A model generated the notes under the pieces. The model was not told the origin of the DNA. It did not search any database and was given only the letters and a program-made list of their open reading frames with translations. Shown here piece by piece: positions 41,299-58,133 of a stretch of DNA of 64,000 nucleotides (within the stretch, counting starts at the first letter, position 1; every line of letters begins with the position of its first letter). Source of the DNA: Solwaraspora sp. WMMD792 (GTDB lineage: Bacteria; Actinomycetota; Actinomycetes; Mycobacteriales; Micromonosporaceae); NCBI RefSeq assembly GCF_029626105.1, contig NZ_JARUBH010000009.1, positions 6,386,001 to 6,450,000 on the forward strand, given 5' to 3'. The position numbers were made by a program, and so were the translations under genes.

Positions 41299-42906
41299 TC
41301 AGCCGGCGCTGTACGCGTACCGGGCGGCCCGTTCGGCCAACCACAGCCACCGGCGCTGCACCGCGCCGCTGGTCGCGGCGACCATGCCGAGCGCGTCGGT
41401 GCGCACCCTGTCCAGTGCGACGGCGTCAGCCGCCGGGGCGTCGAGCAGCCCGGCGCCGTCGCGGAACGCCTCCGCCTCGGCCCCGCCACCGAACCGGGGA
41501 GCGACCTCGTCGCGCCAGAAGTCCGCCCAGTCCAGCTCCGGGTTCCAGCCGAACCGGGCGTACGCCAGATAGCTGATCTCGTTCGTCGGGTGGTAGGCGC
41601 CCGCCTCGCCGAAGATGGTCAGCCCCCGCATGCCGGCCGCGCCGACCCGGGCCGCCATGTCGGCGTACAGCTGCGGCACCCAGGAGTGCCGCTGCCGGTT
41701 CCACTGCGATCCGGCGTGGGTACGCAGCACGTTCGTCGTGTGCGGTAGCGCTTCGACGTGCGCGGCGGTCAACCGGTCCCGGTTGTCGTACCAGAACCCC
41801 CGGTTGACGCAGTACTGGTAGGCCACGTCGTCGGGCAGGTCGGCCAGCGGACGCTGTGCCGGCAGGTCGAAGATGTTGTCCCAGTAGACCTCGACCAGGT
41901 GCCGCAGCGGCACCCCGGCCGGCCCGGTACGCCGGGCCGTGTCCAGCAGCGTCGGGTAGACCGACCGCATCGCCTCGTACGACCAGGAGGTGCGTTCACC
42001 GCCGGTGCGCCGGGTGCACCGAGCGCAGGCGCAACTGCCGTAGTCGCCGGTCTCGAAGTTGATCCCGCCCACCGGGATCGTCTCCAGCAGCCAGTCGACG
42101 GCGTCGCGATTCCAGGCCAGATTGTCCGGCTGCGACGGGCAGGCGGCCATCATGTACTCGCTGGCCGGGAAGTGCAGATCGCCGAACTCGTCGATGTCAA
42201 AGCCGACCTTCTTCGGCAGCTCGGCGGCCAGGTCGGGGCGTTGCCGCAGCCAGGTCGCCAGGTTGTAGCGGTGCCGACCGTCGAAGTAGATGCCACCGTA
42301 GGCGTTGACCCCGATCCCGGCGATGATCCGCACGCCCCGCTCGTTGGCGTACCCGCACAGGTCGCGGGCCGCGTCGACACCGCCGTGCGCGTCGCGCAGC
42401 AGCCCGTAGACGACGATCCCGCCGATCCGTTCCCGGCTGCAGAAGTCGACCAGTCGCCGGTAGTCGGCGCCGAACGCGTCGGCTGACTTGGCGTACGGGT
42501 TGAGCGCGCCGATCTCCTGTAGGCCGAGCTGGCGCAGATCCCAGTTGGTCGAGTGGTCCCAGGTCCACAGGGTGCGCAGTGCCAGCCCGGGTGCCTGCTC
42601 CCGTACCCCCACCGGGACCCGGCGTTCGGTGGCCAGCTCGGTCAGCTCCCGGGCGGCGTAGATCAGGCCGGCGAACGGGTCGCCGGTCAGCCGGATCCCA
42701 CCGTCACCGGTCGGGTCCGCACCCGGCCCGCCACCGGCCGGAACCTCGATCCGGTAGGTGCCCTCCGGCAGCGCCGGGTCGGCGTCGAGGTGCACCGGCA
42801 CCCCGTCGGTGGAGCTGCCGAAGGTCTCGGCGAGCAGCCGGGCGGCGTACGGCGCGGATTCGGCACCGCGTACCTGGACTCCGGCGATCTGGCGTAACTG
42901 CGACAT
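41299..42906 (-). CDS. Putative glycoside hydrolase with GH20/GH67-like N-terminal domain
   Basis: A 535-residue protein without signal peptide, so intracellular. The first 110 residues resemble the helper domain of hexosaminidases and alpha-glucuronidases (Y-R-I-E-V-P...I-R-L-T-G-D-P-F-A-G-L-I-Y-A-A-R-E-L). The rest looks like a TIM barrel. A motif E-T-G-D-Y-G-S-C-A-C-x2-C holds three closely spaced Cys and a possible catalytic Glu. It is the last gene of the E1/SDR operon, 2 nt after the YciI gene, with a GGGAGG ribosome site. The substrate is probably a glycoside or sugar-acid conjugate imported by the cell; no close characterised family is known to me. Confidence 0.6.
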   Translation of the reverse strand: MSQLRQIAGVQVRGAESAPYAARLLAETFGSSTDGVPVHLDADPALPEGTYRIEVPAGGGPGADPTGDGGIRLTGDPFAGLIYAARELTELATERRVPVGVREQAPGLALRTLWTWDHSTNWDLRQLGLQEIGALNPYAKSADAFGADYRRLVDFCSRERIGGIVVYGLLRDAHGGVDAARDLCGYANERGVRIIAGIGVNAYGGIYFDGRHRYNLATWLRQRPDLAAELPKKVGFDIDEFGDLHFPASEYMMAACPSQPDNLAWNRDAVDWLLETIPVGGINFETGDYGSCACARCTRRTGGERTSWSYEAMRSVYPTLLDTARRTGPAGVPLRHLVEVYWDNIFDLPAQRPLADLPDDVAYQYCVNRGFWYDNRDRLTAAHVEALPHTTNVLRTHAGSQWNRQRHSWVPQLYADMAARVGAAGMRGLTIFGEAGAYHPTNEISYLAYARFGWNPELDWADFWRDEVAPRFGGGAEAEAFRDGAGLLDAPAADAVALDRVRTDALGMVAATSGAVQRRWLWLAERAARYAYSAG

Positions 42907-42908
42907 GT

Positions 42909-43205
42909 CTACCTCCCGAGGGATTGCGGTGTGGCGGCCAGGTACTCGGCCACCTCGATGGCCGTCCACACCCCGTGCCGCCAGTACGGGTCGGCCTCGC
43001 ACACCGCGCGGGCGGCGTCGGCGTCGGCGGCCCGCACGATGAGCACCGACGCGCTCAGATCGGCGTACGCGCCGGCGACCAGCGCGGTGCCGTCGGCGAG
43101 CAGGGTGGCGACCCGGTCCAGGTGGGCGGACCGGTGCGGCCCGCGCCGCTGCGCCGCGTCGGCGGCGTACCTGGCGGTGACCAGGTAGGTCGGCTCGAAT
43201 CTCAC
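42909..43205 (-). CDS. YciI-like protein
   Basis: A 98-residue ferredoxin-like-fold protein of the YciI/dimeric alpha-beta barrel type. It has a typical R-x2-H-L-D...D-G-x-L-V-A-G-A-Y-A-D pattern and A-x-x-V-C-E-A-D-P-Y near the end. Members act as small isomerases, hydrolases or dehalogenases. The GTG start overlaps the stop of the regulator gene. In this operon it may isomerise or clean up a keto-sugar acid. Confidence 0.8.
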   Translation of the reverse strand: MRFEPTYLVTARYAADAAQRRGPHRSAHLDRVATLLADGTALVAGAYADLSASVLIVRAADADAARAVCEADPYWRHGVWTAIEVAEYLAATPQSLGR

Positions 43206-44554
43206 GCGTCACCGCCGATCGCCTCGAACAGCCGCTGCATCGCCACCCGGTAGACCGTCTGCGGGCGGCCGGCTCCGGTGCTGACGTGCACTCCGACCTC
43301 GTCGGCGTAGCCGGCGGCGCGCAGCGAGTTGAGCAGCCGGCGTGCCGAGCGGGCCTCCACCCCGTACGCGTCGGCCAGGCCGCGGGCGGTGACCTCGTTG
43401 GGGTCCAGCTGATGCAGCGCCTCCAGCAGGCGTCGGGTGGACAGCGGGCCGAGTTTGAGCTGTTCGGAGACGCGCAGGATGCCGGGCGCGGTCTCCCGCA
43501 GGCGTTGCTTGACCGGGCTCACCCGGGTGGAGTGGATCTCCCCGTCGGGGAAGACGACGTGGGTGTCGCCGCTGCCCCGGCTCAACGCGAGGGCCTTGCG
43601 GGCGTTGTCCTCGGCGGCGGCGATCGTCGTGCCGGCGCCGAAGCCGACGGTGTGGCCGCCGTCGACGCCGCGCAGGGTGAGCAGGGAGGCGTGGCCGGCC
43701 CGGTGGCGGGCGAGGGCACTGTCCACGGTGCCCCGGGTGGTGGTGATCACCATCGTCCGGTCGTCGATCATGCTGAGCCGCCCGCGCATCCGTTCGGCGT
43801 GTTCCAGCAGCGCCTCGCGCAGCCGCAGCCGCTGCCGTTCCACCTCGTACGGGTCGTGCCGGCGGCTGGCCGGCTCGGCGAACTCGATCATCATCACGGC
43901 GATCTGGGTGGCCCGGGACTGCCGGATCTCGGCGGCCAGCCAGGCGCGGCGCAGCGCGTCGCGCACCGACGCGCGGGTGTGCTCGACCCGCCAGACCGGC
44001 ACGCCCGCCTCGCGCAGGTCGCGGTGCACCGCACCGAGGCAGGTCAGGCAGGCTTCGACGGCACCGGTGGCGTACCGGTCACGGTGGTAGGCGGTGACGT
44101 CGTCGAGGGTGGCGTAGAGCAGTCCGGTCGAGTCGGCGATCGGCAGGATCTCGGTCGGTGCGGGCACCTCGATGTCGTGGTATGTCTCCCGTACCACCCC
44201 GGCCTCGATGGTGTCGACGCTGACCGTCGGCAACTGCCCGCCGGTCGCCAGCAGCATCCGGGACAGGGTGCGGTAGAGGTCGATGCCGCCGTGGCGGATG
44301 TAGTCGACCTCGGCGCGCAGGTCACCGGCGGCGGTGGCGAGCGCGTGCGGGATCCGGCCGGTGAACAGCAGTACCTGGCAGAGCTCGTCGAGCTCGCGGG
44401 CCAGTTCCGGGGCCTGCTCCGGCCGGGCGTACGCACGGCTGGTGAGTTCGCCGGCCCGCCCTTCGCCGGCCCGCCCTTCGCCGGCCCGCCCTTCGCCGGC
44501 GGCGACCTCCTGGACCAGCCGGATGGAGTCCTCCGGCCCGATGATGCCGATCAT
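43202..44554 (-). CDS. Transcriptional regulator with nucleotide-cyclase-like sensor domain and C-terminal winged helix
   Basis: A 450-residue protein. It begins I-G-I-I-G-P-E-D-S and has a middle region with A-V-M-M-I-E-F. A segment G-H-T-V-G-F-G-A-G-T-T-I-A-A-A-E-D-N-A follows, like the GTP cyclohydrolase III / GGDEF-related fold. The last 90 residues form a winged helix (S-T-R-R-L-L-E-A-L...V-T-A-R-G-L-A-D-A-Y-G-V-E-A-R-S-A-R-R-L-L). An expanded 15-bp repeat adds G-E-G-R-A units near residue 20. It is probably the local regulator of the sugar-acid operon; the ligand may be a nucleotide or sugar acid. The ATG has GGAGG upstream. Confidence 0.65.
   Translation of the reverse strand: MIGIIGPEDSIRLVQEVAAGEGRAGEGRAGEGRAGELTSRAYARPEQAPELARELDELCQVLLFTGRIPHALATAAGDLRAEVDYIRHGGIDLYRTLSRMLLATGGQLPTVSVDTIEAGVVRETYHDIEVPAPTEILPIADSTGLLYATLDDVTAYHRDRYATGAVEACLTCLGAVHRDLREAGVPVWRVEHTRASVRDALRRAWLAAEIRQSRATQIAVMMIEFAEPASRRHDPYEVERQRLRLREALLEHAERMRGRLSMIDDRTMVITTTRGTVDSALARHRAGHASLLTLRGVDGGHTVGFGAGTTIAAAEDNARKALALSRGSGDTHVVFPDGEIHSTRVSPVKQRLRETAPGILRVSEQLKLGPLSTRRLLEALHQLDPNEVTARGLADAYGVEARSARRLLNSLRAAGYADEVGVHVSTGAGRPQTVYRVAMQRLFEAIGGDA
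44447..44500 (-). repeat. In-frame 15-bp minisatellite in the regulator gene
   Basis: Three full copies and a partial copy of TTCGCCGGCCCGCCC encode G-E-G-R-A. Copies are identical, indicating recent expansion. Confidence 0.88.
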
Positions 44555-44610
44555 GTGTTGCTGCCTCCACGTCGTCGCCGGCTCGCGGGCGGGCTGCTCA
44601 GCCAGGCCGT

Positions 44611-45468
44611 TCAGCCGGTGTAGACGGTGCCGGTGATGCTGGCCGACAGTGGTGCCGCGAGCACCACCAACGCCGACGCCACATCTTCCGGCCGGCCCAG
44701 GTCGGCTTCGATGCCGGCGACCCGGCCGGCATCGACCCCGTTGGTCCGCGCCTCGTCCAGCGAGCGGCGCATCAACGGAGTGTCGATGTCGCCGGGGCAG
44801 AGCGCGTGCACTCTGACCCCCCGTGGGCGAAGCTGGCGGTCCAGGGTCAGTGCCAGGCCGTGCAACCCTCCCTTGCTCGCGCCGTAGGGTACCGACCCGG
44901 AGCCGGTCAGCACGCCCGCCTTGGAGCCGACCAGCACCAGCACCCCGGTGCCGGCGGTCAGGTGCGGTACGGCGTGCTTGGCGACCAGGAACGGCCCGGT
45001 CAGGTTGACCGAGAGCACCCGGTGCCACAGCTCGATCGGCACACTGGTCACATCCAGGCCCTGGCCCTGCATGATCCCGGCGACATGCAGCACCGCGTCG
45101 ATGCCGCCCCAGGCGGCGGCGATACTGCCGAACGCGTCGGCCACCTCAATCTCGACCGTGACGTCGACCTGACGGGAGTACGCCGTGACACCGAGGTGGC
45201 GGACCTCGTCGGCGGCGCGGGCCGCGCCGGCTCCGTCCGCGTCGAGGACGGCGACCGCGGCGGCGCCGGCCGTGGCGGCGGCCCGGACGGTGGCCAGCCC
45301 AATGCCGGAGGCGCCGCCGAGCACCACGACCCGCCGTCCGGCCAGCACGGGCGCCGTACCGCTGGCCGGTGTGGCCGCCGCCGGATCCTCCGCCGCCGGG
45401 TCCGCCGCCGCCGGGTCCTCCGCCGCCGGGTCCTCCGCCGGCGGGGCGTCCCGGGCGTCGCTGGTCAC
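44611..45468 (-). CDS. SDR-family dehydrogenase
   Basis: A 285-residue short-chain dehydrogenase. The first 40 residues are an Ala-Glu-Asp-Pro repeat with no counterpart in the family. Then comes the NAD(P) loop G51-G-A-S-G-I-G57, N155 and the catalytic S182, Y195 and K199 (Y-G-A-S-K). Acidic D76 after the second strand suggests NAD preference. Its GTG start overlaps the E1 beta stop. In the proposed pathway it would oxidise a 2-keto-3-deoxy sugar acid to a diketo acid. Confidence 0.88.
   Translation of the reverse strand: MTSDARDAPPAEDPAAEDPAAADPAAEDPAAATPASGTAPVLAGRRVVVLGGASGIGLATVRAAATAGAAAVAVLDADGAGAARAADEVRHLGVTAYSRQVDVTVEIEVADAFGSIAAAWGGIDAVLHVAGIMQGQGLDVTSVPIELWHRVLSVNLTGPFLVAKHAVPHLTAGTGVLVLVGSKAGVLTGSGSVPYGASKGGLHGLALTLDRQLRPRGVRVHALCPGDIDTPLMRRSLDEARTNGVDAGRVAGIEADLGRPEDVASALVVLAAPLSASITGTVYTG
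45377..45445 (-). repeat. In-frame 15-bp repeat in the SDR gene
   Basis: Four or five imperfect 15-bp units encode A-E/A-D-P-A at the N-terminus of the SDR. Confidence 0.8.
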
Positions 45469-46448
45469 GCCCCGACCGTCCGGCGCACGGCGGCGGCCAC
45501 GTCGGCGGCCTCCGGCACGACGGCGGCCTGCAGCGCCGGTGCGGCCGGCATCGGCACATCCGGGCAGGCGACCCGGGCGATGGGGGCACGCAGGTCGGCG
45601 AAGCACTCGGCGGCGGCACGGGCGGCGATCTCCGCACCGAAGCCGCCGGTCAGGTTGGCCTCGTGGGCCACGACGAGCCGGCCGGTACGGGCCACCGATG
45701 CCGCGACGGTGTCGAAGTCGAGCGGGTTGAGCCAGCGCAGGTCGATCACCTCGGCGTCGATGCCGTCGTCGGCGTGCAGCTGCCCGGCGGCGTCCAGCGA
45801 CGCGGACACCATCCGGGACCAGGCGACCACGGTGACGTCGGCGCCGGTGCGGACCACCCGCGCGCCGCCGACCGGCTCCACCGCCGCGTCGGTGCGGACC
45901 TCGCCCCGGGTCGGGTAGAGCATCCGGGCCTCGGCGACGACCACCGGGTCGTCGCTGGCCACGGCGGTACGCAGCATCTGGAACGCGTCGTCCGCAGTGG
46001 CCGGTAGAGCCAGCCGCAGCCCGGGGGTGTGCGCGAAGTACGCCTCCGGGGAGTGCGAGTGCTGGGCGCAGGCACCGGGTGAGTAGCCCTGCTGCATCCG
46101 GATCACCAACGGCACCCGCCACCGGCCGTTGCTGGCGTAGTGGATCGTCGGGATCTGGTTGACGAACTGGTCCATCGCGACGAACGAGAAGTCGGCGTAC
46201 ATGATCTCGGCGATCGGCCGCAGGCCGGTCATGGCCGCGCCGAGCGCCATGCCGAGGAAGCCGGACTCGGAGATCGGGGTGTCGAAGATCCGTGCCGAGC
46301 CGAACCGCTTGTGCAGCCCTTTCGTCGCGCCGAACGGCCCGCCGGGCAGGGCGACGTCCTCGCCGAAGTAGATGGTGTCGTCCCGGCTGTCCAACGCCCA
46401 GGTGAGGGCGGCGTTGACGGCCTGGATGTAGCGCAGGGACTCAGACAT
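45465..46448 (-). CDS. TPP-dependent dehydrogenase E1 component, beta subunit
   Basis: A 327-residue beta subunit of the 2-oxoacid/acetoin dehydrogenase E1 type. E30 in F-G-E-D-V-A contacts the thiamine ring. E-S-G-F-L-G-M-A-L-G-A-A, M-Y-A-D-F and Q-Q-G-Y-S-P-G-A-C-A-Q-H-S-H-S are the other typical segments. It overlaps the alpha gene by 8 nt. No E2 acyltransferase, E3 dehydrogenase or lipoyl protein is encoded nearby, so it may work on its own with another electron acceptor. Confidence 0.9.
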   Translation of the reverse strand: MSESLRYIQAVNAALTWALDSRDDTIYFGEDVALPGGPFGATKGLHKRFGSARIFDTPISESGFLGMALGAAMTGLRPIAEIMYADFSFVAMDQFVNQIPTIHYASNGRWRVPLVIRMQQGYSPGACAQHSHSPEAYFAHTPGLRLALPATADDAFQMLRTAVASDDPVVVAEARMLYPTRGEVRTDAAVEPVGGARVVRTGADVTVVAWSRMVSASLDAAGQLHADDGIDAEVIDLRWLNPLDFDTVAASVARTGRLVVAHEANLTGGFGAEIAARAAAECFADLRAPIARVACPDVPMPAAPALQAAVVPEAADVAAAVRRTVGA

Positions 46449-47394
46449 GGACGTGCTCCTTGACGGTCGCCGGGTCGGGCAGCGGCGTGGCGCGGGCGGC
46501 GGCGACGGCGGCTTCGATCTCGGCGTCCACCTCGGCGTCGATCGCGTCCAGGGCGGCGGTCAGCGCCGCGTCGGCGGCCTGCCGGATGCGGGTGAGCGGT
46601 TCACGCTGGCGGGCGGCGGCGATCTCGCCGGCCGGCCGGTAGTGCTGGGCGTCGCCGCTGTAGTGCCCGACCAGGCGTTCGGTCATTGCCTCCACGATGG
46701 ATGGGCCGGAGCCCTCGCGGGCGCGGGCCACCGCCTCGTCGACGGCGGCCGCGACCGCGTCCGGGTCGTTGCCGTCGACGACCCGACCGGGTACGCCGTA
46801 GCCGGGTGCCCGCTCGGTGAGCTGGCGTACCCGCACCATGTCTTCGATCCGCGACATCTCCGAGTAGACGTTGTTCTCCACGACGACGACCAGCGGCAGG
46901 TCCAGCACGGCGGCCATGTTGATCGCCTCGTGCACGTTGCCCTGGTTCATGGCGCCGTCGCCGATGCTCACCACCGAGACCGCGCCGGAGCCGGTGCGCT
47001 GCGCGGTCAGCGCGGCCCCGGTGGCCACCGGCACCCCGGCACCGACGATGGAGTTCTCGCCGACGAACCAGCGGCTCGGGTCCGACAGGTACGGCGAGGC
47101 GGCCCGGCCGCCGCACAGCGCGCTGTCGCGGCCCATCATCTCGGCGAACAGTCCGGCGAGGTCGACGCCGCGAGCGATCGCCCAGCCGTGGCCACGGTAG
47201 GTGGCAGTCACGTAGTCGCCGTCACGCAACGTACGGCAGGCACCGACCGGGATCGCCTCCTGGCCGTTGCACAGGTGGATCGACCCCGGGATCTCGCCGC
47301 CGTCCTTGAGGGCGGTCAGCCGCTCCTCGAACCGGCGGATCCGGGTCATCGACCGGTAGTCGTCCGGCAGCCCCATCACACCCCCAACGCTCAT
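46441..47394 (-). CDS. TPP-dependent dehydrogenase E1 component, alpha subunit
   Basis: A 317-residue alpha subunit. The TPP/Mg motif is complete: G145-D-G-A-M-N150...E-N-N at 173-175. R-G-H-G-W and G-R-A-A-S-P-Y near 68-101 occupy the substrate entry side. It is the first gene of a six-gene operon, with AAGGGA before the ATG. Together with the beta subunit it should decarboxylate or cleave an alpha-keto or alpha-diketo compound; the partner genes point to a sugar-acid product rather than pyruvate. Confidence 0.9.
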   Translation of the reverse strand: MSVGGVMGLPDDYRSMTRIRRFEERLTALKDGGEIPGSIHLCNGQEAIPVGACRTLRDGDYVTATYRGHGWAIARGVDLAGLFAEMMGRDSALCGGRAASPYLSDPSRWFVGENSIVGAGVPVATGAALTAQRTGSGAVSVVSIGDGAMNQGNVHEAINMAAVLDLPLVVVVENNVYSEMSRIEDMVRVRQLTERAPGYGVPGRVVDGNDPDAVAAAVDEAVARAREGSGPSIVEAMTERLVGHYSGDAQHYRPAGEIAAARQREPLTRIRQAADAALTAALDAIDAEVDAEIEAAVAAARATPLPDPATVKEHVHV

Positions 47395-47508
47395 TAGTCC
47401 CTTATTGAGGCTCGTTGAGAATGGAGCCTAGACCAGGGCCATCATGCTATGGAAGAGTGAGGGGCAAGTTTCTGGCCGTTATAGGTCTCAAATTTTCTGG
47501 GGGCAGCT
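47395..47508. promoter_or_regulatory. Divergent promoter region of the E1 operon and the dehydratase gene
   Basis: A 114-nt, relatively AT-rich gap. It contains TAGGTC at 47482-47487, a hexamer that also occurs twice in inverted orientation in the divergent promoter of the second operon (57187-57212). An inverted AGACC/GGTCT pair spans 47430-47488. Confidence 0.45.
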
Positions 47509-48639
47509 ATGGAGATCGCCGCCGTCGACTCGGTGGTGCTCGGCGACGCGCACTTCGTCCAGGTGCACACCGCCGACGGGCTGACCGGCGTCGGCCAGTC
47601 CGCCTGCTGGGGCTACCCCGCGGCGGTGCACGCCGTGGTCGAAGCCTTCCGCCCGTACCTGCTCGGCGCCGACCCGCGGCGGATCGAGCACCACTGGCAC
47701 CACCTGTACCGGATGGGGCCGTTCCGCGGCTCGGTGCTCACCGCCGCCGTCTCCGCGATCGACATCGCGCTGTGGGACGTGCTCGGCAAGCGACTCGGCG
47801 TACCCGTCTGGCAGCTGCTCGGCGGCCAGGTCCGGGACCGGATCCGGCTGCACCTGCTGCTGGGCGGCACCGGCGCCGACGACCTGGCCGCCCAGGCGGC
47901 GGCCGCCGTCGCCGACGGCTTCACCGCCGTCAAGTTCGACCCGCTGCCGGCCGACTACGCGAACCTGTCGGTGGCCCGGCTGGTCGCGCAGACCGAAGCC
48001 ACCACCGCAGCCGTACGCGACACCGTCGGGCCCGACGTCGACCTGCTGATCGAACTGCACCGCAAACTCACCCCGCTGCAGGCCGAATCGGTCGTACCCG
48101 CACTGGCCCGGCACCTGCCGCTGCTGGTCGAGGACCCGATCCAGATCGACAGCGTCAGCAGCCAGGCCGACGTGGCGCGTCGGGCGGCCGGCGTACCGAT
48201 GGCCAACGGCGAACGACTGCACACCATCTGGGAGTTCAAGGAGTTGCTCGCCCAGGGCGGTGCCCAGTATGTGCGCCCCGACGTCGGCCTGGCCGGCGGA
48301 CTCAGTCACGCCCGTAAGATCGCCGCCCTGGCCGAGGCGCACCACGCCGCCGTGGTCACCCACAACTGCCTGGGCCCGCTGCTGACCATGGCGTCGGTGC
48401 ACCTCGACGCGGCGATCCCGAACTTCGTCGTGCAGGAGTACTCGCCACTGGACGACACTCTCGCCACCGGCCCCGCCCGCCCGGCGGTCCGCCGTGACGG
48501 CGGCTACCTGCCGGTGCCCGACCAGCCGGGCCTCGGCGTCACCCTCGACCTGACCGACGCCGCACCACTGGACCTCACCGGCCGGCCACTGACCCGGATC
48601 CCGCGCCGCGCCGACGGCTCCGTCGCCTACGCCGTCTGA
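47509..48639 (+). CDS. Enolase-superfamily sugar-acid dehydratase (galactonate-dehydratase-like)
   Basis: A 376-residue mandelate-racemase-group enzyme. Metal ligands E182, E208 and E235 and the catalytic His pair H184 and H285 are visible (I-E-L-H, V-E-D-P-I, N-G-E-R, T-H-N-C-L-G-P). This is almost the spacing of D-galactonate dehydratase. It would dehydrate an aldonic acid to a 2-keto-3-deoxy acid. The ATG has GGGGG upstream. It is divergent from the E1 operon and should share its regulation. The exact sugar acid cannot be read from sequence. Confidence 0.82.
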   Translation: MEIAAVDSVVLGDAHFVQVHTADGLTGVGQSACWGYPAAVHAVVEAFRPYLLGADPRRIEHHWHHLYRMGPFRGSVLTAAVSAIDIALWDVLGKRLGVPVWQLLGGQVRDRIRLHLLLGGTGADDLAAQAAAAVADGFTAVKFDPLPADYANLSVARLVAQTEATTAAVRDTVGPDVDLLIELHRKLTPLQAESVVPALARHLPLLVEDPIQIDSVSSQADVARRAAGVPMANGERLHTIWEFKELLAQGGAQYVRPDVGLAGGLSHARKIAALAEAHHAAVVTHNCLGPLLTMASVHLDAAIPNFVVQEYSPLDDTLATGPARPAVRRDGGYLPVPDQPGLGVTLDLTDAAPLDLTGRPLTRIPRRADGSVAYAV

Positions 48640-49288: not shown

Positions 49289-49290
49289 CT

Positions 49291-50160: not shown

Positions 50161-50272
50161 GTAGGCCTCCCTTCGACGTCCAGCCTGGCCGAGCGCACCC
50201 TGGCGGCGCCCGACCGTCGTGGCCCGATCCGATCATCCGGCCGCCGACGCGGGTTTGGGCGCCGATCAGGCG

Positions 50273-50797
50273 TCAGCCGATGATCGGGCTGCGGCGTTCG
50301 AGCAGCACCACGTCGCGCCAGCGGCCGTGGTGGCGGCCGACGCGCTCACGGGTGCCGATGGTGCGGAAACCGCAGGTGTGGTGCAGGGTGAGGCTGGCGG
50401 TGTTCTCCGGAAATATTCCAGATTGGATGGTCCAGATGCCGGCCTGCTCGGTCGAGGCGATCAACTGCCGGAGCAGTAGCCGGCCGACGCCGCGCCCTCG
50501 GGCGTCCGGGTGGACGTAGACGGAATGTTCGACGACCCCGGCGTAGACGCACCGATCGGAGACCGGGGTGCAGGCGGTCCAGCCGAGGACGGTGAGGTGA
50601 GCGGCATCGGCGTCGACGGCGACCCAGCGGTGGTCCGGCAATCGGGTGGCGGTGAACCTGTCCCAGCCGGGTGGTTCGGTTTCGAAGGTGGCGTCGCCGG
50701 TGGCGATGCCGAGGCGGTAGATGTCGAGCACGGCGTCGCGGTGCGCGTCGGTCATCGGGGTGAGGACCACCGGTGGCACCGCTCCGGCGGCGGTCAC
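50273..50797 (-). CDS. GNAT N-acetyltransferase, ArsN/phosphinothricin-acetyltransferase-like
   Basis: A 174-residue acetyltransferase with the acetyl-CoA loop R-G-R-G-V-G (100-105). The C-V-Y-A-G-V-V-E-H-S-V-Y-V segment and C-terminal H-H-T-C-G-F are typical of the Pat/Bar group. The GTG start overlaps the arsR stop, so the two are coupled. ArsN1 enzymes of the same group sit in ars operons and inactivate arsinothricin. Context therefore favours an arsinothricin- or phosphinothricin-acetylating role (inference). Confidence 0.78.
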   Translation of the reverse strand: MTAAGAVPPVVLTPMTDAHRDAVLDIYRLGIATGDATFETEPPGWDRFTATRLPDHRWVAVDADAAHLTVLGWTACTPVSDRCVYAGVVEHSVYVHPDARGRGVGRLLLRQLIASTEQAGIWTIQSGIFPENTASLTLHHTCGFRTIGTRERVGRHHGRWRDVVLLERRSPIIG

Positions 50798-51165
50798 CGC
50801 CCGGCTCCGGTGGTGGTGGCGACGTCGAGGAGCCGGGACAGGGCGGCGAGCCGGGTCGGGACGATCCAGTAGTACACCCAGGTGCCCCGGCGCTCGCAGT
50901 CGATCAGGCCGGCTTCCCGCAGCACCTTCAGGTGGTGGGAGATCGTCGGCCCGGTCAGGGTGAACGCCTCGGTCAGGTCGCAGACGCAGACCTCGCCGCC
51001 GGCCTGGGACGCGATCAGCGACAGCAGTCGCAGGCGTACCGGGTCGCCGAGGGCCTTGAAGCCGGGGGCCAGGCTCGCCGCCGCCTCGTCGGTGAGCGCC
51101 TGGTCGGTCAGCGGGGCGCAGCAGGTCGACGTGTGCGGCACGACCGGCAACTCTTGTCTCGACAC
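50794..51165 (-). CDS. arsR: ArsR/SmtB-family metalloregulator
   Basis: A 123-residue winged-helix repressor. The recognition helix T-G-P-T-I-S-H-H-L-K-V-L-R is clear. Cys pairs C15-C16 near the N-terminus and C60-V-C62 at the start of the DNA-binding region resemble the E-x-C-V-C-D-L arsenite site. C90 is an additional candidate. The GTG has no ribosome site. It forms a two-gene operon with the acetyltransferase; no arsenite pump or arsenate reductase is present in the window. Confidence 0.88.
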   Translation of the reverse strand: MSRQELPVVPHTSTCCAPLTDQALTDEAAASLAPGFKALGDPVRLRLLSLIASQAGGEVCVCDLTEAFTLTGPTISHHLKVLREAGLIDCERRGTWVYYWIVPTRLAALSRLLDVATTTGAGR

Positions 51166-51326: not shown

Positions 51327-51692
51327 TCAGGCGGGCGGCGGCGGGTGGCCCGGATGGTCGAAGACCGGGTACGCCCACAGCGGCTCGCCGTCGGCGTCGG
51401 CGACCTCGGCGAACAGGTGTGCCAGCGAACGGGTCCACCGGGCCTGCACCTGCGACGCGGCGGTGACCCGGCTGGCGTGCCCGAAGCCGTTCCGGGTCCG
51501 CAGCACGCAGATCAGCAGCAGCCCTTGCCGGTAGATGCGGTAGTCGTAGATGCCCGCCTCGTCGATCAGCGCCGACAACTCCGGCCAGACCTCGGCGTGC
51601 CGCCGCTCGTACTCCTGCCCGGCGCCGGGCCGCAGCCGGTACACATAACACAGCTGCGCGCCCGGCGCCTCGCTGTCGGCGGGTGCGCTCAC
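51327..51692 (-). CDS. L-rhamnose mutarotase family protein
   Basis: A 121-residue ferredoxin-fold protein of the RhaM/DUF718 family. It has Y-V-Y-R-L-R-P-G-x-x-x-E-Y-E-R-R-H32-A-E-V-W-P-E-L and Y-D-Y-R-I-Y-R, typical of enzymes interconverting anomers of L-rhamnose or L-fucose. The GTG start overlaps the permease stop. As last gene of the transport operon it suggests a 6-deoxy-hexose or related sugar as substrate. Confidence 0.87.
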   Translation of the reverse strand: MSAPADSEAPGAQLCYVYRLRPGAGQEYERRHAEVWPELSALIDEAGIYDYRIYRQGLLLICVLRTRNGFGHASRVTAASQVQARWTRSLAHLFAEVADADGEPLWAYPVFDHPGHPPPPA

Positions 51693-52525
51693 TTGCCGGA
51701 GCCCGCGAGCGCGCCGGAGACCAGCTGCCGCTGGAACACCAGGTAGACGATCAGTACCGGCAGCAGCGCCACGATCAGGCCGGCGCTGACCAGCGGCACC
51801 GACACGTCGTATTGGCCGGACAGCAGCGACACCCCGACCATCAGGGTCTTGGAGTCCGACCCGCCCATGATGACCAGCGGCAGCAGCAGGTCGTTCCACA
51901 TCCAGACGAAGTTGAAGATGGCCAGCGCGGCCAGAGCCGGGGTGGCGATCGGCACCAGGAGCCGGAACAGGATGGTGAGGTGCCCGGCACCGTCCATCCG
52001 GGCGGCTTCGATCAGCTCGTCGGGCACCTGCTGGAAGTAGCCGGCCAGCTGGTAGGTGCCCAGCGGCAGGCCGAACGCCGCGTACGCCAGGATCAGCCCC
52101 TGGTACTCCCCGGACATGCCCAGGTCGAGCACGGTCTGGTAGAGCGGGTAGATGATCGCCTGGCTGGGGATGGTCAACGTGATGATGATCAGCAGGAAGA
52201 CGGCCTTGCCGCCGCGGAAGCGCAGCTTCGTCACCGCGTACGCGACGAGCAGCGCGGCCAGCACCGACAGCACCAGCCCGCCCGCGGTGGTGATCAGCGA
52301 GTTGAGCAGCAGCCGGGGCATGTCCATCCGGCGGAACGCCTCGACGTAGTTTTCCAGGGTCACTCCGGTGGTCGGCAGCCCGAGCGGATCCTCGGCGAAG
52401 CCGTACTGCGTCTTCAGCGAGCTGATCACGGTGAACAGCAGCGGGTAGATCGCCGCGACCGCGACGACGACCAGCGCGAACGTCAGTAGGTAGCGCCCGA
52501 GTCGGGCGGTGGTCCGTCGGCTCAT
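51689..52525 (-). CDS. Sugar ABC transporter permease (MalG type)
   Basis: A 278-residue inner-membrane permease with six helices. The E-A-A-R-M-D-G-A-G coupling loop for the ATPase lies near residue 180. It pairs with the MalF-type permease, overlapping it by 4 nt (ATGA). No ATP-binding gene is in the operon; such systems in actinobacteria often share MsiK. Confidence 0.93.
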   Translation of the reverse strand: MSRRTTARLGRYLLTFALVVVAVAAIYPLLFTVISSLKTQYGFAEDPLGLPTTGVTLENYVEAFRRMDMPRLLLNSLITTAGGLVLSVLAALLVAYAVTKLRFRGGKAVFLLIIITLTIPSQAIIYPLYQTVLDLGMSGEYQGLILAYAAFGLPLGTYQLAGYFQQVPDELIEAARMDGAGHLTILFRLLVPIATPALAALAIFNFVWMWNDLLLPLVIMGGSDSKTLMVGVSLLSGQYDVSVPLVSAGLIVALLPVLIVYLVFQRQLVSGALAGSGK

Positions 52526-53484
52526 CGCGGCTTGCGGGTCCCCTCTTTGAACATGTGCCGCACGGAGAAGATCGACAGCACGGCGACGAAGACGAACAGG
52601 GCGATGCCGATCGCGGACCCGTAACCGCGGTCGAGGAAGGTGAAGGTGGTCAGGAAGACCAGGTACTCCGGCAGCATGGTGGCGTCACCGGGGCCGCCCT
52701 GGGTCAGCGCGTAGATCAGCGGGAACAGCCAGATCAGCACCCCGGAGGCGCACAGCACACTCCAGTACGCCACGGTCGGGCGCAGCATCGGCACCACGAT
52801 CGAGAACAGCCGTCGCCAGAAGCCGGCCCCGTCGAGGTACGCCGCTTCGAGCATCTCGTCGGGGATGGTGGCCAGCCCGGCCAGGTAGGTCATCACCCCG
52901 AGCCCGAAGAAGCTCCACAACGCGACGGCGACCAGCGAGAAGAGTGCGCTGTAGCGGCCGTTGAGCCAGGCGATCGCCAACGGGTCGAGCCCGATCGTGC
53001 GCAGGCCGGCGTTGATCGGGCCGTCGGGGGCGAGGATCTGGCGGAACATGATGCCGACGACGATCGGCGCGATCGTGTACGGGACGAAGTAGACGGCCCG
53101 GAAGAACTTCCAGCCGGGGGCCCGCTGGTGGATCAGCACCGCCAGCACCAGCGGCAGCACCACCCACACCGGCAGGGTGGCGACCACCATCAGCGCGTTG
53201 CGGAAGCTGGTGATGACCATCGGGTCGTCGAGCATCCGCAGGTAGTTGTCGGCGCCGGCGAACGTGGCGCCGCCGAAGCCGGCCGACGACTCCATGCTGG
53301 TGATCACGCCCCGTACCAGCGGCACCAGTTTGAACGCCACGGCCAAGGCCAACGCCGGGGTCACCAGCAGCGCGGCCAGCCACCACTCGCGGGCGTGCCG
53401 GTGGCGGCGGGCCGGCCGGCGGGCGGTTCCGGGCGTCCGGTCGGCGGATGTCGGTTCCGGCGCAGGCGCGGTGGAGAGCGTCAT
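52522..53484 (-). CDS. Sugar ABC transporter permease (MalF type)
   Basis: A 320-residue permease with a Pro/Arg-rich cytosolic N-terminus (about 1-30) and six helices. It has the E-A-A-Y-L-D-G-A-G coupling loop near 214. The ATG has AAGGA upstream. It forms the transport channel with the MalG-type partner. Confidence 0.93.
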   Translation of the reverse strand: MTLSTAPAPEPTSADRTPGTARRPARRHRHAREWWLAALLVTPALALAVAFKLVPLVRGVITSMESSAGFGGATFAGADNYLRMLDDPMVITSFRNALMVVATLPVWVVLPLVLAVLIHQRAPGWKFFRAVYFVPYTIAPIVVGIMFRQILAPDGPINAGLRTIGLDPLAIAWLNGRYSALFSLVAVALWSFFGLGVMTYLAGLATIPDEMLEAAYLDGAGFWRRLFSIVVPMLRPTVAYWSVLCASGVLIWLFPLIYALTQGGPGDATMLPEYLVFLTTFTFLDRGYGSAIGIALFVFVAVLSIFSVRHMFKEGTRKPR

Positions 53485-53513: not shown

Positions 53514-53548
53514 GTCGGTGGGCAGGCGGTGCCGGCCTGCCCACCGAC
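53514..53548 (-). promoter_or_regulatory. Intra-operon hairpin after the binding-protein gene
   Basis: Perfect 13-bp arms 53514-53526 and 53536-53548 lie between the binding-protein gene and the permease genes. It could slow mRNA decay or stop part of transcription, giving more binding protein than permease. Confidence 0.6.
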
Positions 53549-53555
53549 GCGGCGG

Positions 53556-54854
53556 TCAGTTCTGCTGCTTGGTCGGGCTGCGTTCCAGGGCCTGCTGCAT
53601 CTGTTCGGCCCAGGCGTCGACGGTGAGCTGGCCCAGCGTGACCTGCTGCCAGCCGCGGGCCAGCGCGTCGGCCTCCGGGCCGGAGAGCATCACGCCGGCG
53701 TGCAGGGTCGGGTCGGCGACCAGCTCCTGGATCTTGAGGAACGCCGGTGAGTCGGGCAGCAGTGACTGGTCCACGTTCGTGTTCAGCGGCTGCCCCTTGG
53801 CGTACTCCACCCACAGCTCGCCGTTCTCCTTGCTGGCCAGCCAGGAGATAAAGGTCAGACCGGCGTCCTTCTTGTCGCTCCACTGGGTGACGCCGTAGAC
53901 GGCGCCTTCGATGCCGGAGAACTTCTGCGCCAGCGGCGCGTCCGGGTTGATCACCGGCCAGCGGGTGACACCGAGGGTCTCGTCGCCGAGGGCCTCGCCG
54001 AACGCCTGCCAGTTGACCGCGTCGGAGATGATCGTGCCGGCGAAGGCGGCGTCACCGCGCTGGAAGATGTCCGCGCCGTCGGGCAGCATGGTGATCGACG
54101 GAGCGTTGTCGTTGGCCCAACCGCTGGTGGTGATCTCCGCCAGCTTTTCCAGCGTGGACACCAGTTTCGGGTCGGTCCAGGAGATGGTGCCGGCCAGCAG
54201 GGCGCGGATGTCGTCCTCGGTCAGGTAGTTGCGGGCAATCTCCGGGAAGTCCCAGTACGCCGGGAAGGTGCCGGACAGCCCGAGCGCCAGGCAGGTCTTG
54301 CCGGTGGCGGCGACCGCCTCGCAGGCCGCGCCGAACTCGTCCCAGGTGGCCGGCGGCTGTTCCGGGTCGAGCCCGGCGGCGGCCAGCACGTCCTTGTTGT
54401 AGTAGAGGACGTTGCCCTGGTAGGAGAACGGCACGCCGTAGCAGTTCTTGCTGGTGTCGAAGTCCTCGCAGGCGCCGCTGTAGGAAACCAGGTCCTTGTT
54501 GATCTCGGCCGCCTGCTCGCCGAGCGGCACGTACGCGTTGCGCCGATCGAACAGCTCCAGCCCGGCGTTGTTGGCCATCACGTCCGGCCCGGACTGGGAG
54601 GTGATGTACGGTCCCTGCACCTCGGGGTACTTGTCGAACGGGACCGATTCCATCTCCAGCTTGATGTCCGGGTGGCTGGCCTCGAAACGGCTCTTGACCT
54701 GCTGCCAGTATTCGGCACCGCCCGGCTCCCAGGTCAGCACCTTGAGGGTGACCGGTCCGTCGGCGGTGCCGTCGTCACCGCCGCAGCCGGTGAGCAGCAC
54801 GGCGGCTGCCGTCCCGGCGGCGGCGAGGCCGGCAAGGGTACGTCGTCGATTCAT
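53556..54854 (-). CDS. Sugar-binding lipoprotein of an ABC transporter
   Basis: A 432-residue solute-binding protein (MalE-like). The signal peptide ends in a lipobox L-L-T-G-C24, so it is attached to the outer face of the membrane. Body motifs include L-K-V-L-T-W-E-P-G-G, G-P-D-V-M-A and G-V-P-F-S-Y-Q-G-N-V-L-Y-Y-N-K. AGGAG precedes the ATG. It brings a sugar or oligosaccharide to the permeases. Confidence 0.93.
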   Translation of the reverse strand: MNRRRTLAGLAAAGTAAAVLLTGCGGDDGTADGPVTLKVLTWEPGGAEYWQQVKSRFEASHPDIKLEMESVPFDKYPEVQGPYITSQSGPDVMANNAGLELFDRRNAYVPLGEQAAEINKDLVSYSGACEDFDTSKNCYGVPFSYQGNVLYYNKDVLAAAGLDPEQPPATWDEFGAACEAVAATGKTCLALGLSGTFPAYWDFPEIARNYLTEDDIRALLAGTISWTDPKLVSTLEKLAEITTSGWANDNAPSITMLPDGADIFQRGDAAFAGTIISDAVNWQAFGEALGDETLGVTRWPVINPDAPLAQKFSGIEGAVYGVTQWSDKKDAGLTFISWLASKENGELWVEYAKGQPLNTNVDQSLLPDSPAFLKIQELVADPTLHAGVMLSGPEADALARGWQQVTLGQLTVDAWAEQMQQALERSPTKQQN

Positions 54855-54870
54855 CGGGTGAAGCTCCTAA

Positions 54871-55875
54871 TCAGCGAGAGGTGTGGCGGATCCGGTGGGT
54901 GGCGCCGCCGGCGGCGGCGCTGGCGGCGATGGCGGCGGCGACCTGGACCACGTGCAGGCCGTCGGCGAGCGGTACGACCGGAGTCGGGTCCCCGCCGTCG
55001 ATCCGGCGCAGGAAGTGTCGGAGCTCGGCGGCGAGCGCACCGCCCCCGTCAGCGGGCGAGAGCAGCCAGTCCGGCGCCTGCGTCCGGTCGGCGGCCTGCA
55101 CGAGCAGGGTGGGCCGGCCGAGGTCGACGTGACCGACCCCGTCGGTGCCGTACACCTCGACGAGGTCGTCGGTGTGGTTGGGCGCGTGTTCGGGCAGCAG
55201 GTAGCTGTTGCGGATCGACGACACGACGTCGTTGGCGTGCCGCAGTTCCGCCCAGACCAGGACCGGCGTGACCGATCCGGGTCGGGTCCGGGCGGCGGCG
55301 CGGACCTCGACCACCGGCGCCTGCGCGTACCACAGAGCGAGGTCGATGTCGTGCACCGCGGTGAGCAGCGCGGGATGCTCGTGCGGGAAGAGCCGGCTCA
55401 ACGCGCGGGGCCGGTCCCGGCGCGACGAGACGGCCAGCACCTGGCCGAGTCCGCCGGCGTGCACGGTGTCGTACAGTGCCCGGTGCGCGGGGCTGAACCG
55501 CAGGATGTGGCCGGGCTGGCAGAGCACGTCGTGCGCCTGGGCGGCCGCGACGATCGCGGCGGCGTCGTCGACCGTCGTGGCCAGCGGCTTCTCCACCAGC
55601 ACTGGCACACCGGCGTCGAGCAGCGCGACGGCGACCGCGCGGTGGACCGGGCCGGGTACGCAGACCGAGGCGGCGTCGGGCCGGGCCGCGGCCAGCAGTT
55701 CGGTGACGGTGCCGAAGGTGCGGCCGACGCCGTACTGCCGGGCGACGTGTTCCCGGGCGACCGGGTCGGGGTCGACGACGGCGTCGACGGTGACACCGAG
55801 TGATCGGTAGGCGGCCACGTGCCGGGTGCCGAACGCACCTGCTCCGAGTACGGCGACCCGCGGTCCGGAGTTCAT
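54871..55875 (-). CDS. Gfo/Idh/MocA-family oxidoreductase
   Basis: A 334-residue NAD(P)-dependent sugar oxidoreductase. The nucleotide loop is G11-A-G-A-F-G16, and the family motif E95-K-P97 is present. H-I-L-R-F-S-P and H-D-I-D-L-A-L-W occupy the substrate side. The ATG overlaps the M20 amidohydrolase stop (ATGA). It could oxidise the imported sugar, for instance at C1 to a lactone, feeding the lactonase encoded divergently. It is also close to inositol and 3-keto-sugar dehydrogenases. Confidence 0.88.
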   Translation of the reverse strand: MNSGPRVAVLGAGAFGTRHVAAYRSLGVTVDAVVDPDPVAREHVARQYGVGRTFGTVTELLAAARPDAASVCVPGPVHRAVAVALLDAGVPVLVEKPLATTVDDAAAIVAAAQAHDVLCQPGHILRFSPAHRALYDTVHAGGLGQVLAVSSRRDRPRALSRLFPHEHPALLTAVHDIDLALWYAQAPVVEVRAAARTRPGSVTPVLVWAELRHANDVVSSIRNSYLLPEHAPNHTDDLVEVYGTDGVGHVDLGRPTLLVQAADRTQAPDWLLSPADGGGALAAELRHFLRRIDGGDPTPVVPLADGLHVVQVAAAIAASAAAGGATHRIRHTSR

Positions 55876-57155
55876 CGGTCCACCGCCCCGGTGGCCGGCG
55901 TCGGTTCGGCTGGTGCGGACGGCTGTGGCTGCGCAAGGCCCGGCTGCGCCGGGGCGGACGGCTGTGCCGGGATCGTGGTGCCGGGCTGGGCGAGTCCGCC
56001 GGCGAGGACGGCCCGGGTCAGCCGCTCCAGCACCGTCACCCCGACGCCGATGCACCGTTCGTCGACGTCGAACGAGCCGGAGTGCAGGGGCGCACCGCCG
56101 ACTGTGCCGTTCGACACGCCGAGTTTGACGTACAAGCTGGGACCGAGCGCGCCGAGCAGCGCGAAGTCGTCGGTGGTCAGCGGTGGGACCGACAGCGGGT
56201 GCAGGTCGACGAGACCGGGCAGTACGGCGTCGGCAAGGGCGACGAGCCGGTTCGCGTTGCGTACCGGCGGCATCTCGTTGGCCCAGGTGAAGCGCAGGTC
56301 GAGGTCGAGAGCGTCGGCCTGCCCGACGGCGACCCGTTCGATCGCCTGTTTCAGCCGGGCCCGGGCGGCCGGATCGTGGGTGCGCAGCGTGCCGGTCGCT
56401 TCGGCGCGTTCGGCGACCTGGCTCTGGCTGGCGCCGCCGGTGATCGTGCCGATGTTGAAGGCGACCAGATCGTCGGGGTTCTGTGCCCGGGCGACGGCGG
56501 CGTGCAGGGCGGTCACGGTGGTGGCGAGACCGAGGATGGCGTCGCGGCCGCTGGCCGGGGTGGCGGCGTGTGCGGCCCGGCCGACCAACTCGACGCGGAA
56601 GGCGTCCTTGGCGGCCATCGCGGTGGTCCGGTCGACACCGAGGGCTCCGGCGGGTAGTCCTGGCCAGCAGTGCAGGCCGAGTACGGCGTCAAAGCGCCGG
56701 TCGGCGAGTGCCGGGTCGGCGAGCACGGCGGCGGCCCCTGAGTCGGCGCCGAACGGGATCTCCTCTGCGGGCTGGAAGAGCACGGTGACGCTGCCGGCCG
56801 GTGGCGGGTCGCCGGCGATCCGGGCGGCGACCCCGTACGCGACGGTCATGTGTACGTCGTGCCCGCAGGCGTGGCAGACGCCCGGGGTACGGGAGGCGTA
56901 AGGCACCTCCTTGGCATCCGACACCGGGTACGCATCCATATCGGCCCGAATAAGTACGGCTGGTCCAGGTGCGGCGGAGTTGAGCTCCAGAAGCAGCCCG
57001 GTGCCGGCTACGCCAGTGTGTAGCCGGCCCAGTGGTCCCAGCAGTCTCTGCAGTGTCGCTGCCGTCTGCTTCTCCTCGAAGCGCAGCTCAGGGTGCTGGT
57101 GAAGTTGGCGCCGTAACTGCGTCAGCGCTTCGACCTCGTCGCCTGCCAGCGTCAC
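55872..57155 (-). CDS. M20D-family amidohydrolase
   Basis: A 427-residue metal-dependent amide hydrolase of the hippuricase/IAA-amino-acid hydrolase group. Metal ligands are visible in C-H-A-C-G-H-D-V-H (94-102), Q-P-A-E-E (128-132) and L-H-S-G-S-F. The last 40 residues are a Pro/Ala/Gln repeat with no family counterpart. The GTG has GAGG upstream. As first gene of the transport operon it may deacylate the imported compound (inference). Confidence 0.88.
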   Translation of the reverse strand: MTLAGDEVEALTQLRRQLHQHPELRFEEKQTAATLQRLLGPLGRLHTGVAGTGLLLELNSAAPGPAVLIRADMDAYPVSDAKEVPYASRTPGVCHACGHDVHMTVAYGVAARIAGDPPPAGSVTVLFQPAEEIPFGADSGAAAVLADPALADRRFDAVLGLHCWPGLPAGALGVDRTTAMAAKDAFRVELVGRAAHAATPASGRDAILGLATTVTALHAAVARAQNPDDLVAFNIGTITGGASQSQVAERAEATGTLRTHDPAARARLKQAIERVAVGQADALDLDLRFTWANEMPPVRNANRLVALADAVLPGLVDLHPLSVPPLTTDDFALLGALGPSLYVKLGVSNGTVGGAPLHSGSFDVDERCIGVGVTVLERLTRAVLAGGLAQPGTTIPAQPSAPAQPGLAQPQPSAPAEPTPATGAVDR

Positions 57156-57263
57156 CTAGCTTCACCTCACGTGTGGCATAAATCCGGACCTAATAGAGAC
57201 AGAACCTAGGTCAGTGGGTGCGTCGCGTCAATGGGCTGGTCGGATCCGGGTTAGGGTCCGGCC
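57156..57263. promoter_or_regulatory. Divergent promoter region of the transport operon and lactonase-like gene
   Basis: GACCTA (57187-57192) and TAGGTC (57207-57212) form an inverted repeat with 14 nt between. TAGGTC also occurs upstream of the dehydratase gene at 47482, so one regulator may control both loci. Confidence 0.5.
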
Positions 57264-58133
57264 ATGGAACGGGCCGACGCACACCTGCACCTGTTCGCCG
57301 ACGGCTATCCGGGCCGGTACGGCAGATCCCCGTCAGGCGGGCTGGAAATATCCGTATATCAAGACATACGACGAGAACACGGGATCAGCCGCGCTCTCGT
57401 CGTCGGCTACGAGGGCGAGCCCCGCTTCGCAGGCAACAACCACTACCTGGCGAGCCTCGCCGCCGTACACGACTGGCTGGCCCCGGTCGCCTACCTGCAC
57501 CCCGGCGGACCGAAACCCGGCGACGAGAGCGGCGGCCGGCGGGGCCAGGCCGGTGACACCGCACCCGGCCACTGGCTGGCCGCCGGGTTCGTCGGCTTCG
57601 CCGCGTACCTGGGCGACCGGGACAGCGCCGACTGGTTCGCCGACTGGTTGACCCGGCACACCGCCACCGTCAACCGGGCGCACTGCCTGCTCAGCGTGAA
57701 CGCCGTACCGGCCGCCGTCGCCCGGCTCGGCCCGGCGCTCGCCGCGGTCGGCGACTGCACCGTGCTGTTCAGCCACCTCGGTCTGCCTGGCCGCCAACCC
57801 ACACCGCCGGCGCCGGCGACGGCAGCCACCATCCTCGCCCCGCTGGGCGAGCTGGCCAGGCTGCCCCACGTCGGGGTGAAGGTCTCCGGCCTGTACGCGG
57901 TCAGCGACCCCCCGTACGACCACCCGCACGCGGCCGCCCGGCCCTTCGTCGAGCAGCTGATCGAGTGGTACGGGCCACAACGGCTCTACTGGGGCTCCGA
58001 TTTCCCGCCCTGTCTGGACCACGTCTCGTTCGCCCAGACACTCGATCCGGTCGGCCTGGCCGGCCTGAGCGTCGGCGAACACGCGGACGTGGCCGGCCGG
58101 AACCTGCTGAGGGCTCTCGGCGACAACGGATGA
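57264..58133 (+). CDS. Amidohydrolase-2 family lactonase-like protein
   Basis: A 289-residue metal-dependent hydrolase of the amidohydrolase-2 group, which contains L-fuconolactonase. H7-x-H9 (D-A-H-L-H-L-F) and the catalytic Asp in L-Y-W-G-S-D-F-P-P near residue 248 are visible. The ATG has AGGG upstream at a long distance. It is divergent from the transport operon. A role in opening a sugar lactone fits the neighbours. A short patch near codons 28-40 uses A/T-ending codons unlike the rest of the gene. Confidence 0.78.
   Translation: MERADAHLHLFADGYPGRYGRSPSGGLEISVYQDIRREHGISRALVVGYEGEPRFAGNNHYLASLAAVHDWLAPVAYLHPGGPKPGDESGGRRGQAGDTAPGHWLAAGFVGFAAYLGDRDSADWFADWLTRHTATVNRAHCLLSVNAVPAAVARLGPALAAVGDCTVLFSHLGLPGRQPTPPAPATAATILAPLGELARLPHVGVKVSGLYAVSDPPYDHPHAAARPFVEQLIEWYGPQRLYWGSDFPPCLDHVSFAQTLDPVGLAGLSVGEHADVAGRNLLRALGDNG

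Follow-up and report, generated by a model that had tools for sequence, protein, structure and literature searches.

A stretch of 64,000 nucleotides from the actinobacterium Solwaraspora sp. WMMD792 (contig NZ_JARUBH010000009.1, positions 6,386,001 to 6,450,000; genome size 7.4 Mb), here called the window, contains two operons in which an E1 alpha/beta pair, of a kind annotated as 2-oxo acid dehydrogenase subunits, is encoded together with proteins of non-phosphorylative sugar oxidation. The comparison with related loci gives good support for a recurrent non-phosphorylative sugar pathway with an E1 pair that lacks an E2 partner, and the gene content is best explained as serving the catabolism of a single imported sugar or small glycoside. 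In this pathway, the E1 pair would cleave the product of a short-chain dehydrogenase/reductase (SDR) at thiamine diphosphate (ThDP), a reaction proposed by analogy and to which we assign a probability of roughly 0.55. All genes listed in a preliminary description of this DNA were found where it had placed them. The features are as follows (window positions, strand, and assignment).

41299..42906, minus strand: glycoside hydrolase (GH)-like protein of 535 aa, without a signal peptide (by eye); N-terminal domain like that of GH84/GH20 hexosaminidases
42909..43205, minus strand: YciI-like small protein (PF03795, 47 bits)
43202..44554, minus strand: regulator-like conserved protein without a family match; C terminus winged-helix-like (by eye)
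44611..45468, minus strand: SDR dehydrogenase (PF13561/PF00106), with GGASGIG and YGASK motifs
45465..46448, minus strand: E1 beta, ThDP dependent, Glu61 kept (PF02779 and PF02780; NCBIfam NF006667, 298 bits, below the cut-off of 321)
46441..47394, minus strand: E1 alpha, ThDP binding, GDG...NN motif kept (PF00676, 236 bits; TIGR03182, 265 bits, below the cut-off of 394)
47395..47508, no strand: divergent promoter region between E1 alpha and the dehydratase-like gene, with conserved blocks in nine aligned rows, perhaps operator or promoter elements
47509..48639, plus strand: enolase-superfamily dehydratase-like enzyme related to galactonate dehydratases (PF13378/PF02746; NF010624, 269 bits, below the cut-off of 311)
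51327..51692, minus strand: RhaM-like mutarotase (PF05336, 68 bits)
51689..52525, minus strand: ATP-binding cassette (ABC) permease (PF00528)
52522..53484, minus strand: ABC permease (PF00528)
53556..54854, minus strand: extracellular solute-binding protein (PF01547, 99 bits)
54871..55875, minus strand: Gfo/Idh/MocA dehydrogenase with an EKP motif (PF01408, 87 bits)
55872..57155, minus strand: M20 amidohydrolase (PF01546; TIGR01891, 253 bits, above the cut-off of 154)
57264..58133, plus strand: Amidohydro_2 lactonase-like hydrolase, with HxH, His171, and Asp246 kept (PF04909, 47 bits; PDB relatives 4dlf and 2ffi)

The preliminary description had taken operon A (GH-like protein to E1 alpha) and operon B (RhaM to M20) to belong together, and the comparison of loci bears this out. 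In seven other Micromonosporaceae loci (L014, L016, L017, L018, L020, L021, and L022), the dehydratase-like gene adjoins operon A on one side and operon B, as far as the stretches reach, on the other, in the same order and orientation. In an eighth genome (G037), operon A (L025) lies about 40 kb from operon B and the lactonase-like gene (L136). The unit is conserved in these eight other genomes, and E1 is present in every intact copy. In the window, the dehydratase-like gene is separated from RhaM by four unrelated genes (48740 to 51165: one without a Pfam match, one AraC/GyrI-like, one GNAT, and one ArsR), which do not intervene there in the seven related loci. The gene-by-gene comparison indicates that operons A and B are inherited together and that the cluster has a sparse, discontinuous distribution in the family. 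With the GH-like gene as a marker, matches were detected in 6 of 250 family genomes, including the genome under study and one partial match, and in a phylum sample of 396 in the genome under study only. The regulator as a marker gave eight Micromonospora loci. Micromonospora rubida (L019) carries a remnant of the cluster, and genome G036 carries pieces of it (L026 and L037), partly at contig ends, which suggests loss or assembly gaps.

The composition of the unit also bears on whether the E1 pair is a carboligase like alpha-keto acid dehydrogenase 2, which would build or, in reverse, split a C2-branched sugar. E1-type pairs do so in aldgamycin and kibdelomycin biosynthesis (PMC12247030). The unit, however, encodes uptake proteins (a binding protein and permeases), a mutarotase, and lactonase-like and dehydratase-like proteins, no nucleotide-sugar enzyme was found among the 20 window genes run against Pfam, and the genes flanking the unit differ among the loci compared. 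Such a role is therefore very unlikely.

To place the E1 pair, E1 alpha relatives were gathered by similarity from a class sample, the phylum sample, and plasmids, and the neighborhoods of part of them were fetched. E2 genes were sought with a profile in the fetched stretches, whose flanks extend at most about 10 kb. Except in loci checked with Pfam or annotated in the record, other neighbors were sought in phmmer searches seeded with one or a few proteins, which may miss distant members. Matches at E ≤ 1e-65 came from 50 of the 296 genomes in the class sample, at 62 places, of which 60 belong to genomes other than the one under study; 40 of these 60, mostly top-ranked, were fetched, and 39 were used after L066, a 3.3-kb contig, was dropped. 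Ten plasmid records chosen by hand from the best 40 of 258 were added, as were both phylum sample matches from other genomes and four of the six other E1 places of the genome under study. Loci at a contig end (L015 and L023), the remnant L019, L024 (the same stretch as L016), and the partial loci L026 and L037 at contig ends were left out; L142 and L143 stand outside the tree and its counts.

In the resulting tree of 64 rows of E1 alpha plus E1 beta, the window pair falls within a set of 27 rows with branch support of 100/99. This clade consists of 9 window-type rows and 18 others, with 37 rows outside. E2 was detected in the fetched stretch of none of the 9 window-type rows, 1 of the 18 other clade rows, and 17 of the 37 rows outside the clade, or 19 of 37 if the lone lipoyl domains of L127 and L130 are included (Fisher P = 0.002 and 0.0009, respectively, both uncorrected for kinship). 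For the class sample alone, the counts were 0 of 11 clade rows versus 10 (or 12) of 28 rows outside (P = 0.04 or 0.009). L039, in the genome under study, has a weak and partial E2-like match (36 bits) and was counted as lacking E2, and a match of 19 to 23 bits about 8 kb away in the clade row L098 was treated as chance. The E2 trait, with 20 labels on the tree, needs six changes. The absence of both E2 and an FAH-family hydrolase from the cluster, as the preliminary description had claimed, was confirmed by the lack of E2 and PF01557 matches in the window range. No E2 (profile), E3 (one seed), or FAH (single seed) match was found in the fetched stretches of the window-type loci. A further E1 alpha/beta pair of the same genome (L041, G000:C9:5448374), which the tree places well away from the window pair, also has no E2 match in its fetched stretch; its neighbors, judged by eye, are aminotransferase-like and transporter-like genes, and that pair is possibly biosynthetic.

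The clade has invariant residues of its own. E1 alpha S38, Y66, E113, and S115 and E1 beta Q119, Q120, and P124 are found in all 27 clade rows, and among the 19 E2-linked rows outside the clade each occurs in at most two (E113, two; Y66, two; Q120, none). The residues E1 alpha H69 and H244 and E1 beta E61 are kept in all rows counted. As far as sequence can tell, the clade residues would fit an altered substrate pocket and possibly a different partner. The gene company of the clade differs as well, in that an Amidohydro_2 gene was found in the fetched stretch of 7 of the 18 other clade rows (weakly in L097) versus none of the 37 rows outside, and an acyl coenzyme A (acyl-CoA) dehydrogenase was found near none of these 18 versus 15 of 37.

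Six of the 18 other clade loci (L093, L094, L095, L096, L098, and L104) form a second, differently built cluster with SDR, Lyase_1/ADSL_C, E1 alpha, E1 beta, VOC, Amidohydro_2, Gfo/Idh, and LacI genes, joined in five of the six by an Rbs-type sugar ABC transporter. The lyase, Amidohydro_2, Gfo/Idh, and SDR assignments were confirmed by Pfam in L094 and L104 and made in the other four loci through phmmer matches to those proteins. In L104, where Pfam also gave RhaM and a muconolactone-isomerase-like protein, a mutarotase, Gfo/Idh, a lactonase-like protein, a lyase, SDR, the E1 pair, and a sugar transporter are present, with no E2 or FAH match. Its predicted composition is that of the window unit with the lyase replacing the enolase-type enzyme. 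L094 has an apiosidase-like glycosidase close by. In L030, L100, and L102, the E1 pair is accompanied by an SDR, a metallo-beta-lactamase-fold protein, LacI, and a Dpp-type transporter. These results support the earlier interpretation in part, in that E1 recurs with SDR, Gfo/Idh, Amidohydro_2, and a dehydratase-like enzyme in other actinobacterial clusters using a different dehydratase-like enzyme. Of the findings that the preliminary description had named as refuting it, E2 next to the E1 of close relatives was met just once, and a failure of the two operons to co-occur was not seen.

From the protein families we infer the following order of steps, and likewise the E1 reaction and the substrate. 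The ABC transporter would import a sugar or small glycoside, and the GH-like protein and the M20 amidohydrolase may release or trim the sugar. RhaM would exchange the anomers, the Gfo/Idh protein would oxidize C1, the anomeric carbon, and the Amidohydro_2 protein would open the lactone. The enolase-type enzyme would then dehydrate the sugar acid (aldonate) to a 2-keto-3-deoxy acid; its residues H184, E208, E235, D258, and H285 are invariant in seven aligned rows and match those of dgoD-like relatives. The SDR, probably NAD linked, would oxidize C4 or C5 of the 2-keto-3-deoxy acid to a product that is both a diketo acid and an alpha-hydroxyketone. Because this is the bond type cut by the E1 of acetoin dehydrogenase, the E1 pair would probably cleave a carbon-carbon bond of the SDR product at ThDP by the same logic, and the acyl group would pass to an E2 in trans or to another acceptor.

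The E1, dehydratase-like, and lactonase-like proteins score below the NCBIfam equivalog cut-offs, and family names therefore do not tell exactly what they act on. L-Rhamnose and L-fucose, both considered earlier as inducing sugars, are unsupported as substrates. L-Rhamnose is disfavored because another RhaM gene of the same genome, outside the cluster, scores far better (104.5 bits versus 69.2 for the cluster RhaM). For L-fucose, the lactonase-like protein scores 40 bits against a curated L-fuconolactonase cut-off of 400 (NF052480), far too low for support, and it matches PF04909, a broad family, alone. An N-acylated or amide-bearing sugar is a guess from the GH84/GH20-like N-terminal domain and the M20 protein, which exceeds its amidohydrolase cut-off. 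More speculatively, and with considerable doubt on our part, there may be an actinobacterial pathway family ending in an E2-independent ThDP enzyme that cleaves an SDR-made keto sugar acid, instead of an aldolase or an FAH hydrolase. It would comprise at least two builds, with an enolase-type or a Lyase_1-type dehydratase, often with a small muconolactone-isomerase-like, YciI, or VOC partner.

Several observations weigh against the preferred pathway, in which the E1 pair cleaves the SDR product. Genome-wide, E1_dh gave seven matches and E2 gave six; four of the E2 matches are strong, and none lies in the window range. E2 is close to the E1 genes at 2304719 and 5779055, and the E1 at 319186 shares a 1,305-codon frame with E2. 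With four strong E2 matches, including the one fused to E1, an ordinary 2-oxo acid dehydrogenase reaction with E2 in trans may take place. In this case the window pair would borrow E2/E3 encoded elsewhere and oxidatively decarboxylate the 2-keto-3-deoxy or diketo acid to an acyl-CoA. The kept E1 alpha H69 and H244 and E1 beta E61 agree with this, as does L090, a Rhodococcus sp. WB1 plasmid locus and the only one of the 27 clade rows with an E2, which is lipoyl bearing and lies directly after E1. No E2 was found in the fetched stretch of the other 26 rows, which argues against borrowing, and so does the loss of a C-terminal glutamate of E1 beta at column 307 (Q307 in the window). Each of the 18 E2-linked rows that have a residue in this column carries the glutamate, and none of the 27 clade rows does, L090 included. 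Its link to E2 is weakened by a second E2-less clade of 14 rows (L103, L105 to L114, L117, L118, and L129), separate from the window clade in the tree, which keeps the glutamate in 14 of 14 rows; the glutamate therefore does not simply track E2, and its loss in the window clade is a correlate only. E2-docking positions taken from Bacillus stearothermophilus numbering did not fit the E1 beta alignment and were dropped. We regard an in-trans E2 as a possible explanation, although not a probable one.

The second E2-less clade also has other gene company, with an acyl-CoA dehydrogenase match nearby in 8 of 14 rows, so that a missing nearby E2 alone does not point to sugars. Within the window clade, L032, L034, and L092 (Rhodococcus, Streptomyces, and Microbacterium plasmids), together with L142, have M20, IclR, E1 pair, alcohol dehydrogenase (ADH), and acetoacetate-decarboxylase-like genes, and no lactonase-like or dehydratase-like match was found in these four loci. 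L091, L097, L099, and L101 are without the sugar-acid gene set as well; the sugar-acid pattern therefore does not cover every clade member. The gene set M20, IclR, E1 alpha, E1 beta, ADH, with acetoacetate-decarboxylase-like and major facilitator superfamily genes, is conserved in L142 (pRHL1 of the well-studied strain Rhodococcus jostii RHA1), L092, and L034. Finally, the scheme gives no firm role to the M20, YciI, or GH-like protein of the window.

FAH genes elsewhere in the genome (eight PF01557 matches, four strong, none in the window range) and an FAH gene near E1 in L035 argue that E1 is not simply a substitute for FAH. The four strong matches could even supply the hydrolase of the known diketo-hydrolase pathway from another locus, with E1 handling a side product or a later intermediate. 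This is unlikely, since E1 is kept in every intact unit copy with no FAH match in those stretches, E1 recurs with SDR in differently built clusters, and FAH was found in only 1 of the 18 other clade loci in a single-seed search. Cleavage of the SDR product by the E1 pair is our preferred reading.

Two of the exceptional loci have further features. L035 has a fused E1, SDR, amidohydrolase, ADH, VOC, and a muconolactone-isomerase-like protein along with FAH. L090 also has an enolase-type protein, two SDRs, Gfo/Idh, and an SMP-30 lactonase; directly after its fused E1 alpha/beta gene, a muconolactone-isomerase-like domain is fused to a complete lipoyl-bearing E2 (L090:8012-9706). A plasmid search with this fusion gave itself as the whole-length, full-identity match and no second clear fusion among the 12 matches listed. 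Muconolactone-isomerase-like proteins are also found near E1 in L035 and L104, and such a protein may be a partner of this E1 clade.

The regulator gave no Pfam or NCBIfam family match. Its orthologues in six Micromonospora rows are 81 to 87% identical, and its AlphaFold model (mean predicted local distance difference test score, 36) was too poor for use. As a regulator-like family without a known family match, it is a good target for an effector search. The GH-like protein had no sequence matches in Pfam/NCBIfam (E up to 0.001), PDB (E up to 1), or plasmids (E up to 0.001). Fold comparison placed its N-terminal domain alone, an alpha/beta domain resembling that of GH84/GH20 hexosaminidases; the catalytic barrel and acid pair of GH84/GH20 enzymes were also looked for, in a barrel modeled with low confidence. 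An operator common to both divergent promoter regions was rejected, as no exact words of 8 to 12 bases are shared by the region between the dehydratase-like gene and E1 alpha and that between the lactonase-like gene and M20 in the two species compared (window and L014). GGTCT-type words in the two regions look alike, a resemblance left unproven.

If the proposal is true, non-phosphorylative sugar oxidation has another ending, a clade of E1 pairs annotated as 2-oxo acid dehydrogenase subunits has a catabolic role, and new enzymes cleaving or joining carbon-carbon bonds become available. Given the clade residues and the two builds of the cluster, a few purified proteins would be enough to test it. 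Searches of open-licence literature gave no paper whose title or opening abstract lines describe an E1 pair ending a non-phosphorylative sugar pathway, or the combination of such a pair with a diketo-type pathway in a conserved catabolic unit, which is weak evidence of absence. An E1-type pair outside a 2-oxo acid dehydrogenase complex has precedents in the biosynthetic carboligases (PMC12247030), and the diketo pathway is also already known.

The L-fucose/L-rhamnose diketo-hydrolase pathway of Xanthomonas, Herbaspirillum, and Sphingomonas shares with the window a mutarotase, a C1 dehydrogenase, a lactonase-like protein, an enolase-superfamily dehydratase, and an SDR. Step one of that pathway is performed by an SDR, whereas the window has Gfo/Idh. 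The known pathway uses an FAH-family hydrolase to cleave the SDR product, as described in PMC13406643; the window instead has the E1 pair, with no such hydrolase in the cluster, and the additional M20, YciI, and GH-like proteins. Compared with the D-galactonate dehydratase (DgoD) family, the window enzyme is 40 to 45% identical to three dgoD-like relatives, with the catalytic positions kept, but stays below the galactonate dehydratase cut-off. At what we take to be the first metal ligand position it has Glu for Asp, as do two of the three relatives.

The window pair has the conserved catalytic positions of the E1 of 2-oxo acid dehydrogenase complexes but not an E2 encoded with E1. To our knowledge, the clusters of alpha-keto acid dehydrogenase 2 carboligases are also without E2. 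These carboligases (KbDH and that of aldgamycin) resemble the window in having an E1-type pair outside the complex and differ from it in their biosynthetic context and pyruvate donor; the E1 tree contains no proven carboligase sequence. Further carboligases of this type are presumed in trioxacarcin, paulomycin, avilamycin, and everninomicin biosynthesis (PMC12247030). AcoAB (acetoin dehydrogenase/acetoin:DCPIP oxidoreductase) likewise has an E1-type alpha/beta pair, and in Bacillus acetoin dehydrogenase, cleavage of an alpha-hydroxyketone is the physiological role of the pair (PMC12247030). AcoAB works with a lipoamide-bearing second enzyme, according to the same source, and the window pair has Y66 and W71 where His stands at each position in 17 of the 19 E2-linked rows.

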